Below are positions 24,091 through 59,604 of a stretch of 64,000 nucleotides of DNA, one piece after another. Every line of letters begins with the position of its first letter. Positions within the stretch are counted from its first letter, which is position 1. Where the stretch lies: NCBI RefSeq assembly GCF_003384035.1, contig NZ_QQAK01000010.1, forward strand, positions 186,001 through 250,000, read 5' to 3'. Position numbers and translations under genes: made by a program. The DNA is from Sporosarcina sp. BI001-red (GTDB lineage: Bacteria > Bacillota > Bacilli > Bacillales_A > Planococcaceae). The notes beneath the pieces are model-generated. The model made no database searches, had not been told where the DNA came from, and was given only the letters and a program-made list of their open reading frames with translations.

Positions 24091-24763
24091 CAACCTCGTT
24101 AAGGGATTAATTGGTAGCGCTTCGCTTGTTGAGGGACGGGCTATGGTGCTGAGAGCTAGGCATGCTGTGTTCTCCGACAGTTCGTAGTAATTGTCCGACT
24201 ACCGGAGTGTGTTCTTTGACACTTAAGAGGGTTTCTCCATCACACCGGTTAATTTCTCCGACACATAGCGAAGTTTCTCGATAACGGGACACAATTCAAC
24301 CTCGTTAAGGGATTAATTGGTAGCGCTTCGCTTGTTGAGGGACGGGCTATGTTGCTGAGAGCTAGGCATGCTGTGTTCTCCGACAGTTCGTAGTGATTGT
24401 CCGACAACCAGAGTGTGTTCTTTGACACTTAAGAGGGTTTCTCCATCACACCGGTTAATTTCTCCGACACATAGCGAAGTTTCTCGATAACGGGACACAA
24501 TTCAACTTCGTTAAGGGATTAATTGGTAGCGCTTCGCTAGTTGAGGGACGGGCTATGGCTGAGAGCTAGGCATGCTATGTTCTCCGACAGTTCGTAGTAA
24601 TTGTCCGACAACCGGAGTGTGTTCTTTGACACTTAAGAGGGTTTCTCCATCACACCGGTGAATTTCTCCGACACATAGCGAAATTTCTCGATAACGGGAC
24701 ACAATTCAACCTCGTTAAGGAATTAATTGGTAGCGCTTCGCTTGTTGAGGGACGGGCTATCCC
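24091..24763 (-). repeat. Tandem macro-repeat array A of about 206 bp, built of 21-nt phrases
   Basis: Three full copies (starting 24091, 24297 and 24503; periods 206, 206 and 204) and a partial fourth. Read on the minus strand, each copy holds about six 21-nt units with the core TGTCGGAGAA at a fixed place and a variable 9-nt part, then a spacer with AACAAGCGAAGCGCTACC and AATTAATCCCTTAACGAGG. Open frames of 61 codons start at the same GTG in copies 1 and 2. Their three differences are all amino-acid-changing, so coding is doubtful. Confidence 0.9.
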
Positions 24764-29461: not shown

Positions 29462-29484
29462 GACGAAGTATAAGAAATGAATAT

Positions 29485-29560
29485 ATTCTCGTATATGCTC
29501 AGTAATAGGGTCTGAGCGTCTCTACCAGGTTCCCATTGAAAGAACCGGACTACGAGTTGA
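29485..29560 (+). promoter_or_regulatory. Purine riboswitch aptamer, guanine class
   Basis: P1 arms CTCGTA (29488-29493) and TACGAG (29551-29556) enclose the family core: TATATGCTCAGTAATAGGGT, CTGAGCGTCTCTACCAGG and ACCGGACTAC. The specificity base in GGACTAC is C (29550), as in guanine/hypoxanthine sensors; adenine sensors have U. Bases AACCGGAC-TACG (29543-29554) can pair with CGTAGGTCCGGTT (29636-29648), giving an antiterminator. Ligand binding would thus favour termination. Confidence 0.93.
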
Positions 29561-29638
29561 AGAATAGTGCGCATACCTTGTCGTTCTTTGTGCTTTTTAG
29601 CATGAAATGAAGGTATACATGCACCCTTTGACTTTCGT

Positions 29639-45803: not shown

Positions 45804-47237
45804 GTGAGTTTGCAAACGTTCACAAAAGAGTATATCGAGAAACACGCAGCCTATTTCGAGGAAATCAGTGAATACATCTTCAATCATCCAGAAACACGAT
45901 TCGAAGAATATGAATCTGCCAAGTATTTATCCGAAAAATGTGAAGAGCGAGGCTTCCACGTAGAACGAGGTGTTGGCGGAATTGAAACCGCATTCACCGC
46001 GACTTTTGGAGAAGGCCATCCTGTCATTGGATTTCTGGGGGAATTCGATGCGTTGCCTGAGCTAAGTCAGGAACCAAATTCTATTGAAGAAAAACGCTGG
46101 GAACGACATATTGGCCATGGTTGTGGTCATAATCTGCTAGGGACAGGTGCTTTTGCAGCCGCATGTGCGGCGAAAGCCTATTTGGAACAACATCAGCTAT
46201 CCGGAACTGTGAAATTTTACGGTTGTCCTGGTGAAGAGGGGGGATCTGGCAAGACGTTCATGGCTCGTGAAGGCGTGTTTGACGGAACGGATCTCGCACT
46301 CTCGTGGCACCCATCACCGACGAACAGCATTATGAGTTTGAGTACACTTGCGAACATTCAAGTGTTTTATCGATTCAAAGGGGTTCCATCACATGCCGCT
46401 AGCACACCGCATTTAGGTCGCAGTGCACTCGACGCATTGGAACTAATGAACACGGGTGTTCAATACCTACGAGAGCATATGCCGGACCAGGCACGCATTC
46501 ACTATGCAATCACTAATACAGGCGGATTTGCACCGAACGTCGTTCAAGCGAATGCAGAAGTACTGTATTTGATTCGCGATGTCGATACCGAAAGCGTTAT
46601 GGATTTGTTTGAACGAGTGAACAAAGTAGCTCAAGGTGCTGCTCTCATGACTGAAACAACTATGACCTATGAAGTAGATAAAGCGTGTTCAAATTATATT
46701 CCGAACCGCGCACTGGAAGGCATTCTGTATGAAAGTTTAACGGAAATTGGAATTGAGCCGCCTACTGAAGAAGAGAAAGAATATGCAAAAGGAATTTTTG
46801 AATCACTCTCTAAAGGAGAACAGAAAGATTACCTTGGCGTCATGAAAGGATTCGGATATGTAGGGAACGGCTCTGAATTCAAAGGAAAGTACGTGTCAGA
46901 TTGTATTGCACCGTACGAAGTACCAACCGAAGTTTTGACCGCTTCCACAGATGTCTCCGATGTTAGCTGGATATTGCCGACAGCGCAGTTATCAACATCG
47001 ACATCAGCACTCGGGACACCGCTTCATACGTGGCAGATGACGAGCCAAGGGCTATCAACAAATGCACATAAAGGGATGTTACGAGCAGGGGCATCTATGG
47101 CGCTCACGGCATTGAAGATTTTTGAAAACACAGACTTACTTGCGCCGATTCGTGATGAATATATCGAGTTTGCCAAGGAAAATCCATATACATGTCCGAT
47201 ACCTGACGGCGTAATGCCTTCACCACTCGGAAGCTAA
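45804..47237 (+). CDS. abgB: p-Aminobenzoyl-glutamate hydrolase subunit B
   Basis: M20-family subunit (477 aa; E. coli AbgB 481) that with AbgA cleaves p-aminobenzoyl-glutamate, a folate breakdown product, to p-aminobenzoate and glutamate. Characteristic blocks: FLGEFDALPELSQ, GHGCGHNLLGTGAFAAA, CPGEEGGSGKTFM and STDVSDVSWILPTAQ. GTG start with GAGGGGGAG upstream. First gene of the operon abgB-abgT-abgA, 20 nt before the transporter. The family also includes indole-acyl and other amide hydrolases, so substrate is by homology and gene company. Confidence 0.9.
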   Translation: MSLQTFTKEYIEKHAAYFEEISEYIFNHPETRFEEYESAKYLSEKCEERGFHVERGVGGIETAFTATFGEGHPVIGFLGEFDALPELSQEPNSIEEKRWERHIGHGCGHNLLGTGAFAAACAAKAYLEQHQLSGTVKFYGCPGEEGGSGKTFMAREGVFDGTDLALSWHPSPTNSIMSLSTLANIQVFYRFKGVPSHAASTPHLGRSALDALELMNTGVQYLREHMPDQARIHYAITNTGGFAPNVVQANAEVLYLIRDVDTESVMDLFERVNKVAQGAALMTETTMTYEVDKACSNYIPNRALEGILYESLTEIGIEPPTEEEKEYAKGIFESLSKGEQKDYLGVMKGFGYVGNGSEFKGKYVSDCIAPYEVPTEVLTASTDVSDVSWILPTAQLSTSTSALGTPLHTWQMTSQGLSTNAHKGMLRAGASMALTALKIFENTDLLAPIRDEYIEFAKENPYTCPIPDGVMPSPLGS

Positions 47238-47257
47238 GAAGAATAGGGGGAATGAGC

Positions 47258-48775
47258 GTGGAAACAGCGAAGAAGGGGTTTTTTAACAAAGCATTGAACG
47301 GCATTGAACGAGTGGGGAATCGTTTGCCGGATCCGTTCATCCTATTTGTAGGAATGGCTGTAGCAGTCATGATTGCATCGTTCATCTTCAGTATGTTCGA
47401 TGCATCGGTAAAGCACCCGGGTACTGGCGAAATAATGCCAATTAACAATTTACTATCAGGTGAAGGATTAAAGTACATTCTAGAAACGATGATTACGAAC
47501 TTTACAGGCTTTGCACCACTTGGCATCGTACTTGCAATGATGCTCGGTATTGGATTGACTGAAAAAGTTGGATTATTCGATTATGCAATCAAGAAATCGA
47601 TTATGAAATCACCGCCTTGGTTGCTAACTTATGCAGTTGCATTCGTAGGTATCATGGGGAACATTGCATCAGATGCAGCGATGCTTCTAGTTCCGCCGCT
47701 AGCAGCAATGATTTTCTACAAAGTAGGACGTCATCCACTTGCGGGTCTAGCAGTTGGTTATGCTTCAGCAGGTGCAGGATTTACCGCCAATCTTTTCATC
47801 GTAGGAACAGACGCATTGCTATCTGGTATATCAACAGAAGCTGCGAAGATTGTAGATGATTCAATTACTGTTTCACCAGTGGATAACTGGTACTTCAATA
47901 TGGTTTCTGTATTCATGCTTACACTTCTCGCAGGTTTCATCACATCTAAATTTATCGAGCCGCGTCTAGGTAAATACAAAGGCGATGCTGTTGAATTGGA
48001 AGTGGAAGAAGAAGATCCGCGTTCTGGAAAAGCGCTACGCAACTCAATGATTGCAGGTCTTTTATACCTCGCAATCCTAGCAGTAGGAATCTTTTGGCCA
48101 AACAGTCCTCTTCGTGGTGAAGGAGGCACAATGATTCCGTCGCCGTTCATCTCAGGGATTGTTCCAATTATTCTATTCCTGTTCTTAGTAGTAGGAATTA
48201 CGTTCGGGATCTCGGTAGGGAAGATTAAGAGCGGAAAAGATATTGCGGGTTACATGGCGGATTCGATGAAAGACATGTCAGGTTATATCGTTCTGATCTT
48301 CGCTATTTCTCAGTTCATTGCCTACTTCAGCTGGTCGAACATCGGTACTTGGATTGCAGTAAATGGTGCCGAGTTCTTAGAATCTGTTAACTTTACCGGA
48401 ATCGGTCTTATTATTGGCTACATTATTTTTACAGCAATGATGAACTTCTTAATTACATCCGGATCTGCAAAGTGGGCATTAGAAGCACCAATCTTCGTGC
48501 CGCTCTTTATGCAACTTGGCTATCACCCAGCGTTCACTCAAGTTGCGTATCGTGTTGCCGATTCATCGACAAACATTGTTACACCACTATTGCCATACAT
48601 GGTTGTCGTGCTGACATTTATGCAAAAGTACGATAAAAAGGCGGGAATTGGAACGCTCATTTCACTTATGCTTCCGTTTTCGATTTGTTTCTTGATTGCT
48701 TGGATTCTGCTTATTCTCTTATTCTTCTATGCAGGCATTCCATTCGGACCAGGAATCACACCATTTTTGAAATAA
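47258..48775 (+). CDS. abgT: AbgT-family transporter
   Basis: Inner-membrane p-aminobenzoyl-glutamate transporter family member, 505 aa, about 10-12 segments. Family blocks: NRLPDPFILF, MLGIGLTEKVGLFDYAIK, GNIASDAAMLLVPPLAAMIF and the C-terminal RVADSSTNIVTPLLPYM. I choose GTG at 47258 because AGGGGG is seven bases upstream; the ATG at 47252 is only one base behind that site. Lies between abgB and abgA, so it imports their substrate. Some members instead export sulfonamides. Confidence 0.9.
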   Translation: METAKKGFFNKALNGIERVGNRLPDPFILFVGMAVAVMIASFIFSMFDASVKHPGTGEIMPINNLLSGEGLKYILETMITNFTGFAPLGIVLAMMLGIGLTEKVGLFDYAIKKSIMKSPPWLLTYAVAFVGIMGNIASDAAMLLVPPLAAMIFYKVGRHPLAGLAVGYASAGAGFTANLFIVGTDALLSGISTEAAKIVDDSITVSPVDNWYFNMVSVFMLTLLAGFITSKFIEPRLGKYKGDAVELEVEEEDPRSGKALRNSMIAGLLYLAILAVGIFWPNSPLRGEGGTMIPSPFISGIVPIILFLFLVVGITFGISVGKIKSGKDIAGYMADSMKDMSGYIVLIFAISQFIAYFSWSNIGTWIAVNGAEFLESVNFTGIGLIIGYIIFTAMMNFLITSGSAKWALEAPIFVPLFMQLGYHPAFTQVAYRVADSSTNIVTPLLPYMVVVLTFMQKYDKKAGIGTLISLMLPFSICFLIAWILLILLFFYAGIPFGPGITPFLK

Positions 48776-48793
48776 CCGTTAGGGGGAAACAAG

Positions 48794-50080
48794 ATGGTTT
48801 ACACGCTTGAAGAAAAACTAACGGAATGGCGCCGCGACTTGCATCGCCATCCTGAGCAAGGATTTCTAGAAATGCGGACGGCTTCTATTGTAGCTGCGGA
48901 AGTAACTAGGCTTGGATTTGAAGTTCGACTTGGAAAAGACGTAATGGTAGAGAATGAAATACTAGGCAAACCGTCAAATGAACAGGTAGCGGCACACGTA
49001 CAGTGGGCTATTGATCATGGAGCAGTTGAAGAGTTTTTACCTTACTTTAAAGAAGGCTTCACAGGAGTTGTCGCGGATTGGAATACAGGTCGGCCTGGGC
49101 CTATTACTGTATTCCGTGTCGACATGGATGCGCTGCCGATCTTTGAGTCAAAAGATGATGCACACGTACCAGGGCAACTGGGTTTCCGCTCAATTGCGGA
49201 AGGCTCCATGCATGCATGCGGTCACGATGCGCATACAACTATCGGACTTGGACTTGCGACAATGGTTGCAGAAGATCCGGATGCATTCAATGGAACGATC
49301 CGAATTGTGTTCCAGCCAGCGGAAGAAGGCGCTCGCGGTGCTAAATCGATGACGGAAGCAGGCGTTGTCGATGATGCAGATTTTTTCATTGCAATCCATA
49401 TCGGCACAGGCGTCCCACACGGTGAATTTGTGTCAGCGGCGAACGGATTTATGGCGTCCACGAAAATGGACGTCACGTTCAAAGGACGCGCATCCCACGC
49501 TGGAGCACAGCCGGAAGAAGGAAAGAATGCATTGCTCGCAGCAGCGAGTGCAACATTGAACTTGCATGCAATTTCACGGCACTCAGGAGGAACTTCACGA
49601 GTGAACGTCGGTGAGCTTCAAGGTGGTGGAGGACGCAATGTCATTGCGGATACAGCCATCATGCAACTTGAAACTCGTGGTGAAACTTCTGAAGTGAATG
49701 AATTCATCCGGAAGCAAGCAGAGAACGTACTACGCGGTGCGGCGATCATGTACGACGTGGAGTGTTCGATTGACATTGTCGGTGAAGCAATCAGCTGCAA
49801 ATGCTCGGAAGGGTTAGCCGCAATGATGGGTGCAGTTGCAAACGAGACGATTGGGATTACAAAAGTCCATCATGCAGACAATGCATCTGCAGGGTCAGAA
49901 GACGCGACGTACTTTATGGAACGCGTGAAGGAAAAAGGCGGTCAGGCGACGTACTGTATTTTCGGCACGGAGCTTGCGGCGGGTCATCATAATGAACGAT
50001 TTGATATTAAGGAAGAGACTTTGCCAGTAGCGGTCGATGTATTGCATCGAACAGTTCTTGCACTGAATGGTCGAGAATAG
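48794..50080 (+). CDS. abgA: p-Aminobenzoyl-glutamate hydrolase subunit A
   Basis: M20D subunit of 428 aa (E. coli AbgA 436), partner of AbgB. Metal-site motifs: FRVDMDALPI, HACGHDAHTTIGLGLA, FQPAEEGARGAKS and SEDATYFMERVKEKGG; dimerisation domain roughly 200-330. AGGGGGA precedes the ATG, 18 nt behind abgT. The order B-T-A differs from the abgA-abgB-abgT order of E. coli. Followed by a strong terminator. Confidence 0.9.
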   Translation: MVYTLEEKLTEWRRDLHRHPEQGFLEMRTASIVAAEVTRLGFEVRLGKDVMVENEILGKPSNEQVAAHVQWAIDHGAVEEFLPYFKEGFTGVVADWNTGRPGPITVFRVDMDALPIFESKDDAHVPGQLGFRSIAEGSMHACGHDAHTTIGLGLATMVAEDPDAFNGTIRIVFQPAEEGARGAKSMTEAGVVDDADFFIAIHIGTGVPHGEFVSAANGFMASTKMDVTFKGRASHAGAQPEEGKNALLAAASATLNLHAISRHSGGTSRVNVGELQGGGGRNVIADTAIMQLETRGETSEVNEFIRKQAENVLRGAAIMYDVECSIDIVGEAISCKCSEGLAAMMGAVANETIGITKVHHADNASAGSEDATYFMERVKEKGGQATYCIFGTELAAGHHNERFDIKEETLPVAVDVLHRTVLALNGRE

Positions 50081-50090
50081 AATAAGTAGA

Positions 50091-50137
50091 TCCTCGGTTG
50101 AGCCGTTTAAGAAAACGGTGAAGCCGGGGGTTTTTTG
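50091..50137 (+). terminator. Intrinsic terminator of abg operon
   Basis: Two-part stem (CCTCGGTT with AGCCGGGG, inner GCCGTTT with AAACGG) followed by TTTTTT. Confidence 0.85.
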
Positions 50138-50158: not shown

Positions 50159-50990
50159 AAACAATCGAAGCTCAACTAATTAATCACTTTAAAGGGGGTG
50201 AATTGTGTCCCGTTATCGAGAAACTTCTCTATGTGTCGGAGAAATCTTGCTATGTGATCGAGAAGTTGACTGCAATGTCCGAGAAATATCCCCATGTGTA
50301 CGACAAACACGAAGAACTGTCGGGCAACGAGTGAAGCTGCGTAACAGTGGAGGAGTCCATCCCCCAACAAGCGAAGCGCTACTAATTAATTCCTTAAAGC
50401 AGCTGAATTGTGTCTCGTTATCGAGAAACTTCGCTATGTGTCGGAGAAATCTTGCTATGTGATCGAGAAGATGACTGCAATGTCCGAGAAATATCCCCAT
50501 GTGTACGACAAACACGAAGAACTATCGGGCAACGAGTGAGGCTGCGTAACAGTGGAGTAGCCCATCCCTCAACAAGCGAGGCGCACCCAATTAATCCCTT
50601 AAAGCAGCAGAGTTGTGTCCCGTTATCGAGAAACTTCGCTATGTGTCGGAGAAAACTTGCTATGTGACCGAGAAGTTGACTGCAATGTCCGAGAAATATC
50701 ACCATGTGTACGACAAACAAGAAAAACTGTCGGGCAACGAGTGAAGCTGCGTAACAGTGGAGGAGTCCATCCCCCAACAAGCGAAGCGCTACTAATTAAT
50801 TCCTTAAAGCAGCTGAATTGTGTCTCGTTATCGAGAAACTTCTCTATGTGTCGGAGAAGTCTTGCTATGTGATCGAGAAGTTGGAATAAGTGTCGGAGAA
50901 AACAACAGGTGTGTCTGACAATTATCTTGAGATGTCGGACAACGTGGATGGGGAAATCACAGGCGAGATAGGTCATTCCTAAACAAGTGA
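50159..50990 (+). repeat. Tandem macro-repeat array B of 205 bp, built of 21-nt phrases
   Basis: Equivalent points recur at 50205, 50410, 50615 and 50820, exactly 205 bp apart; the last copy diverges and a partial left flank starts near 50159. Each copy holds 21-nt units such as TTCTCTATGTGTCGGAGAAA and TTGCTATGTGATCGAGAAG with a fixed core and variable ends, then a spacer with CAACAAGCGAAGCGCTAC. Open frames of 85 codons overlap in different frames because 205 is not a multiple of 3, so they are not credible genes. Confidence 0.92.
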
Positions 50991-54071: not shown

Positions 54072-54144
54072 TTGCTCATAAATCACGAAAAGTGATCATA
54101 AAGATGAGATTGCGCTCATAATTCACAGAAAGTGATCATAACCC
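54072..54144 (+). repeat. Four-unit phrase array with exact 20-nt period
   Basis: The core TCATAA recurs with its CATAA part at 54077, 54097, 54117 and 54137, exactly 20 nt apart. Preceding bases alternate between GC and GTGA-type (GCTCATAA, GTGATCATAA). The intervening bases are variable. A different phrase from arrays A-C but the same architecture. Confidence 0.8.
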
Positions 54145-59214: not shown

Positions 59215-59318
59215 TTCTCCTCATCGTCCAGGTTTCCCTGTTGGCAGCAGCACCTTGCGTGAGCAGGTTGCTGAGACGTCATCGGGCCAAGTCCCTCGGT
59301 CTCTCTGGATAAGAAAAG
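59215..59318 (-). promoter_or_regulatory. SAM-I (S-box) riboswitch aptamer
   Basis: On the minus strand: P1 5' arm TTCTTATC, then AGAGAGACCGAGGGACTTGG, CCCGATGACG, CAGCAACC, AAGGTGCTGCTGCCAACAGG and GACGATGAGGAGAA. These are the conserved S-box core elements in order, including the kink-turn GAGGGA/GATGA and the GCAACC segment. Confidence 0.95.
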
Positions 59319-59414: not shown

Positions 59415-59604
59415 AACACGTTGTCCGACAGTTCTCAAGGTTTGTCGGACACCTAGCTATATTTCTTCGACACATATGCCAACTTCTCGATCACGCCGCA
59501 AGATTTGTCCGACACCTAGCGAAGTTTCTCGATAACGGGACACAATTCAACAACTTTAAAGGACTAATTGGGTGCGCTACGCTTGTTTGGGGAGGGCTAT
59601 ACCG
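59415..59604 (-). repeat. Phrase-repeat array C (single macro-copy)
   Basis: One diverged copy of the unit seen in arrays A and B: about six 21-nt units (TTGTCGGACACC, TTCTTCGACACA, TTCTCGATCACG, TTGTCCGACACC, TTCTCGATAACG on the plus strand), then the spacer with GCGCTACGCTTG. The stretch 59605-59838 continues with remnants such as ATCGGCAACGAGACAC, also found at the left edge of array A. Confidence 0.85.

Follow-up and report, generated by a model that had tools for sequence, protein, structure and literature searches.

Anatomy of the array

The window is the whole stretch of DNA that was analysed, 64,000 nucleotides that make up C10:186001-250000 in the 3.52-Mb genome of Sporosarcina sp. 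BI001-red. At 45804-50080 of the window an AbgT-like transporter ORF lies between two M20-type amidohydrolase-like ORFs, names that come from reading the translations. The upstream M20-peptidase-like gene has an intrinsic terminator, a hairpin and T run read in the sequence at 50089-50136 on the plus strand. A repeat array starts directly after this hairpin. From the translations we take the neighbours of the array to be an M20-type peptidase-like protein and a MgtC-type membrane protein-like product.

Four copies of a 205-bp unit span 50212-50952, and each copy has six 21-nt phrases. The phrases belong to a family we call F1. They read [N]TG[A/T]NNGA[G/C]AA followed by 9-10 variable bases, which gives the core TGWNNGASAA, and the six of each block include the head phrase GTTATCGAGAAAN9. 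All parts of the array are on the plus strand. It opens at 50160-50211 with AACAATCGAAGC...TTGAATTGTGTCCC, a diverged partial copy of the conserved leader. Phrase block 1 (50212-50337, six phrases) is joined to block 2 (50417-50542) by a spacer and leader, CAACAAGCGAAGCGC...AATTAATTCCTTAAA...TTGAATTGTGTC, at 50338-50416, whose consensus is found again at other F1 loci of C10. Further spacer and leader segments at 50543-50621 and 50748-50826 lead to block 3 (50622-50747) and block 4 (50827-50952). The layout of a unit is a leader with TTGAATTGTGTCCC at its end, then six exact 21-nt phrases, then a spacer, with 79 nt of spacer/leader between successive blocks. Copy 4 is unlike copies 1-3 from phrase 3 onward (phrases 3-6), and its block is closest to a single unit in S. 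gallistercoris.

A first-pass annotation had described a 205-bp macro-repeat with 21-nt phrases nested inside it. This description holds. TRF gives a period of 205 at 50160-50883 with 3.5 copies, 90% matches and 0% indels, and period-21 sub-arrays are nested within. The block starts (50212, 50417, 50622 and 50827) are exactly 205 apart. With at most 2 mismatches allowed, the window has 49 occurrences of the core TGTCGGAGAAA, whereas shuffled sequence has 22.9 +/- 4.6 and none of the shuffles reached 49.

Coding potential

Since 7 codons are 21 nt, one can propose that the array is translated into a heptad-repeat peptide. A length of 21 nt is a multiple of three, the sequence offers overlapping ORFs of 85-120 aa, and one forward frame is without a stop in 45 of 63 blocks. 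That open frame is unsurprising because the core cannot hold a stop in it, and a stop is present in the other two forward frames in 63 of 63 blocks. Tandem units diverge to the same extent at first, second and third codon positions, whichever phase is taken (0.153-0.168). Core position 9 is G 154 times, C 78 times, and A and T once each, which is no codon pattern. Positions 8 and 11 are almost fixed even though they would be third codon positions of the open frame. The 205-bp unit shifts the frame, and there is no Pfam match above cut-off. Some families, such as F4 described below, have a period of 20 nt, and therefore the arrays are not 7-codon repeats. We consider a heptad peptide highly improbable. 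A coding repeat in general was rejected, with neither codon-position bias nor a consistent open frame and with period-20 families in existence. The first-pass annotation had argued that no continuous protein could form here, and it named translation under purifying selection as the result that would overturn its reading. The frame stops, the flat codon-position profile and the 20-nt families all leave that argument in place.

Other arrays and their families

Two more F1 arrays are in the window, both on the minus strand. The second has three macro-copies spaced 204-206 bp (24170-24694), and the third has one unit and lies upstream of a SAM riboswitch (59421-59535). These two arrays go beyond the first-pass annotation. 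So do three findings described below: the cores come in many dialects, other species have orthologous arrays, and the distribution is restricted by clade. A short F4 array with the core GTGATCATAA/GCGCTCATAA and a period of exactly 20 nt is at 54072-54141 (C10:240072-240141) on the plus strand.

About 1.2 Mb of the 3.5 Mb was examined base by base, and the remainder was covered by pattern and BLAST searches. On the 500 kb of C10 that were covered there are 63 F1 units in 20 intergenic loci, with 1-8 head matches per locus. BLAST with one F1 unit gives 93 matches, part of them partial, the majority on C10. The same search finds no match on C9 (620 kb). The F1 arrays are strongly concentrated on the one contig, at C10 108000-473000. 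The first-pass annotation took equivalent points to be exactly 205 bp apart. This is true of the window array and specific to it, since the spacing of F1 units at other loci is 156-226 bp, mostly 204-218.

Phrase sequence and order in F1 are uniform inside a locus and different from locus to locus. The leader/spacer of F1 is common to several loci and to a block of another family, F3. The families of the source genome are told apart by their cores: F2 has AACCCGCYCGTT, F3 has GGCCGATTC and F5 has TAACCGCTCGATT, all with period 21, and F4 has GYGMTCATAA with period 20 and 253 adjacent phrase pairs genome-wide. F6 is GTGATCAAGC alternating with CCGCTCAAGC at 20 and then 21 nt, so its period is 41 nt; its loci are L059, L070, C10:27441, C10:319662 and C10:340498. 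Families adjoin in some intergenic regions, F4 with F1 at C10:142-439 and C12:105k, and F3 with F1 at C10:183.8k and C14:57k. The half-words GTGATC and CCGCTC are common to the cores of several families. A first half like GTGAT or CGCTC in F1, F4, F6, F2 and F5 suggests, at the level of spelling, that these families may have drifted from one system.

Constraint on the core

Tandem copies in the same array differ at 5% of sites in the core bases TG, GA and AA and at 25% in the variable half, a difference of about fivefold. In each of the 14 arrays the core is the less diverged of the two (Wilcoxon p = 1.2e-4). The copies were found with a motif that covers phrases 0 and 1, so the test was redone on phrases 2-4 alone. 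The core is then at 0.058 and the variable half at 0.278, again in 14 of 14 arrays with p = 1.2e-4. Among arrays that were found without reference to a core, 5 of 10 have a contiguous conserved half that reaches significance (permutation P < 0.05).

The spacing rule

The first-pass annotation noted that 21 nt is two helical turns, and it proposed a genome-wide motif search in which random phasing elsewhere would count against it. Phasing turns out to be near-exact. In the sampled genome 333 successive F1 cores are spaced at 21 nt, against 4-19 at each other spacing from 14 to 28. F2 has 112 of 112 spacings at 21 nt and F4 has 144 of 152 at 20 nt.

This can also be seen with no core specified. 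A periodicity scan (84-nt windows, self-match of at least 46, lags 12-32, outside ORFs of at least 150 aa) was run on the source genome, ten congeners, members of the same family and other families of the class. The best lag of the non-ORF hits is almost exclusively 20 or 21. Hits at lags 20 and 21 number 3 and 20 on C10, 11 and 8 on other contigs, and 2 and 6 in the congeners. In other genera of the family, four hits are at 21 and a single one is at 15. Over the same lags, other families of the class gave no non-ORF hits. A wider scan of 2.6 Mb from the source genome and relatives (lags 8-60, threshold 50) found non-coding periods of 20, 21, 40, 41, 42 and 60. Two non-coding arrays are exceptions, the first with a period of 11 and the second with a period of 39. 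Arrays inside ORFs have periods that are mostly multiples of three. Lower thresholds bring in more background, with 20-21 and 40-42 still dominant.

The spellings that follow this rule are unrelated. There are at least 12 different cores across species, and those of congeners and related genera include TTATCACCG, GTTGGASRCTTC, TTTACTACCG, GCGCCAATA, TAATTGCAACT (period 20), AATAATCGCCA and AGTTGGAACTC, so the 20/21-nt rule extends to other species and genera. Non-coding short-period tandem repeats as a rule have many period lengths. In this group of related genomes, a near-uniform period of two turns whatever the spelling speaks for a geometric requirement and not for slippage.

One rival explanation is static curvature, in which the period itself would bend the DNA and no sequence-specific protein would be needed. 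F2 and F5 arrays are predicted to be highly curved (z about 5-6 for full-length arrays). However, F1 (z of 1.6 for the window array), F3 and F4 are low to moderate and mostly near shuffled values. The scores rest on wedge angles taken as general background, and a periodic sequence inflates them. Curvature also gives no reason why the core bases T, G, GA and AA are conserved exactly. We regard it as improbable, though less so than the peptide.

Species distribution and orthologous arrays

When three phrases in register are required, F1 is limited to 7 Sporosarcina species out of about 68 (G000, which is the source, and G007, G010, G020, G025, G038 and G065). F2 has the identical seven-species distribution, and F4 is present in 15 Sporosarcina species. 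The few other single-genome hits in Sporosarcina have a different core or a coding-like look. About 130 genomes of other genera gave one F1-pattern hit, and it is coding-like. Across 84,980 species scanned, the array form turned up in Sporosarcina sp. D27, sp. ZBG7A, S. gallistercoris, S. aquimarina and a Sporosarcina MAG; many of the remaining hits resemble coding repeats. Bacillus fonticola (L170, 5070-5200) has a candidate 21-nt phrase array with the F1-like core TTTGATGGACAAA. The first-pass annotation mentioned phrase-like repeats from other Bacillaceae, and a setting in the Bacillaceae and Planococcaceae is supported.

The arrays are at matching intergenic sites between species, with flanking genes about 80-86% identical. 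At the window locus S. gallistercoris has one unit and the source genome 3.5, and that unit comes after the same terminator hairpin and before the same MgtC-like gene. At C10:423k Sporosarcina sp. D27 has two units and the source genome four. At C10:472k ZBG7A has one, D27 two and the source genome three, with the order of phrase types kept. Between species the orthologous arrays differ by 0-0.12 in the core and 0.28-0.47 in the variable half, values that come from few phrases.

These comparisons bear on the main rival explanation, a self-propagating or neutral satellite that does the host no good, with tandem units that spread and are kept alike by recombination or a putative mobilising enzyme. 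The core would be preserved since the propagating machinery, and not the cell, recognises it, and core constraint taken by itself could equally be expected of such an element. Unit number at the same locus does vary by species (1 vs 3.5, 2 vs 4, 1-2 vs 3), units are homogenised within each locus and distinct between loci, and several loci share a leader/spacer with an F3 block. On the other hand, the positions are syntenic, and no insertion signature was seen. The F1 unit has no match in plasmid and phage collections. A neutral satellite does not predict a common period for unrelated cores, and the constraint falls on the core, phrase by phrase. We think a satellite is somewhat unlikely, but it is the alternative to be taken most seriously. 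A mobile element carried by a plasmid or phage was rejected, with the F1 unit unmatched in those collections.

Genomic context and transcription

On C10 31 of 31 arrays are outside genes by simple ORF calls. The arrays have a slight preference for convergent gene pairs on this contig, as terminator-linked elements would, but it is not significant (7/27 vs 30/197, p = 0.17).

An intergenic array could be transcribed, and its repeated motifs could then work as a regulatory RNA, as a sponge or as an element within an mRNA. Arrays often lie just past the terminator of a gene or near the next gene, and each has a well defined strand. Against this, neither strand of the phrase blocks folds more stably than shuffled sequence (z -0.55 to 0.55), and one strand of the spacer has a z-score of -1.62. 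No Rfam family matches the array, while elsewhere in the window Rfam finds SAM and purine riboswitches. The strand of an array does not follow that of the genes beside it, and none of the gene-pair classes shows significant enrichment. An RNA role is therefore unlikely in our view. The first-pass annotation offered arrayed protein-binding sites or a structured transcript; the fold scores speak against the second, and the first, with a putative protein, is our best reading. The Rfam matches in the window are a purine riboswitch at 29469-29572 (plus strand) and a SAM riboswitch at 59218-59315 (minus strand).

Comparison with known repeats

Plasmid iterons and parS/parC centromere arrays are direct repeats of about 20-22 bp with a fixed core and helical phasing, on which protein assembles along one face. 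Each of these lies at one locus, next to a rep or par gene. The Sporosarcina arrays share the spacing by integral helical turns (20-21 nt), but they are scattered over the chromosome in several core families. No dedicated gene was noticed next to them, and by their translations the neighbours of the window array do not look like rep or par genes. The bcr repeats of the Bacillus cereus group likewise lie dispersed between genes in Bacillales, but in general they are longer, stand as single elements and do not form phased phrase arrays.

The nearest known kinds are STAR and BOX elements. STAR elements of Staphylococcus have a 14-bp GC-rich motif, T(G/A/T)TGTTG(G/T)GGCCC(C/A), and successive motifs are separated by 40 bp or more of recurring sequence (PMC3532100). 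They resemble our arrays in being direct repeats interspersed between genes, with a short motif that stays fixed and spacers that vary and are specific to each locus. Copy number also shifts at fixed loci, there are signs of purifying selection and no function is assigned (PMC3532100). The difference is that the Sporosarcina motif recurs every 20-21 nt with strict spacing and in many unrelated spellings, TGWNNGASAA and others in place of the STAR motif. BOX elements of Streptococcus pneumoniae have predicted stem-loops, terminal inverted repeats and presumed mobility (PMC3049150). They too are modular intergenic elements with a leader, a variable tandem array of inner modules and an end module, and their size varies by locus (PMC3049150). 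The Sporosarcina arrays have no fold signal, with z about 0 for phrase blocks and -1.62 for the spacer on one strand, and their positions are syntenic. No terminal inverted repeats or target duplications were noticed when the loci were read by eye. Prokaryotic satellites are described in 'Satellites in the prokaryote world' (PMC6749651), and no 20-21 nt non-coding class was seen in the parts of that article consulted here. A search of the open-licence part of PMC found no published description of this class of array, and one may exist elsewhere.

A model for the arrays

We argue that the arrays are helically phased recognition sites read on one face of the DNA by a putative protein, and we hold this with roughly even confidence. 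The argument follows from a one-turn core that recurs at two-turn spacing regardless of its spelling, in intergenic regions and at stable positions. Each word would occupy about one helical turn and recur every two turns, which would put all copies on the same side of the duplex. A putative DNA-binding protein would read the one-turn core and assemble along one face of the array, and the variable turn would serve for spacing alone. Several word families may mean several readers, or one reader family with drifting specificity. Unequal exchange or slippage between 205-bp units would alter copy number. The likeliest use would be in chromosome organisation or in a step linked to replication or segregation. 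What the analysis shows is the anatomy of the arrays, the 20/21-nt rule, the constraint on the core, the placement between genes and in synteny, and the non-coding character; the protein, its assembly and its cellular role are what we infer from these observations.

Some findings count against the model. The core is no known site, and its spelling differs by family, which calls for several readers or a drifting one. F1 is restricted to 7 of about 68 members of the genus. Helical phasing is deduced from the spacing, and families at 20 nt and at 21 nt cannot both fit one helical repeat exactly.

More tentatively, the arrays may be a new class of chromosomal cis-element in which spelling drifts by clade and the two-turn spacing stays fixed. 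It would be genus-wide at least and probably extend to related genera, with co-evolving putative proteins that organise the chromosome. We find this broader idea possible and less probable than the model itself. The arrays could lead to a chromosome-organising system that was overlooked because annotation leaves them blank or puts spurious small ORFs in their place.

Strand and GC skew

In 24 of 28 cases the strand of an F2-F5 array agrees with the sign of GC skew of its contig (C9, C10, C11, C12 and C14; this is a contig average, and local skew agrees less). F1 on C10 is mostly on the strand opposite to the skew, with 5 plus and 15 minus (Fisher p = 6e-4). For some families, this skew-linked strand bias is a hint of a polarity tied to replication.
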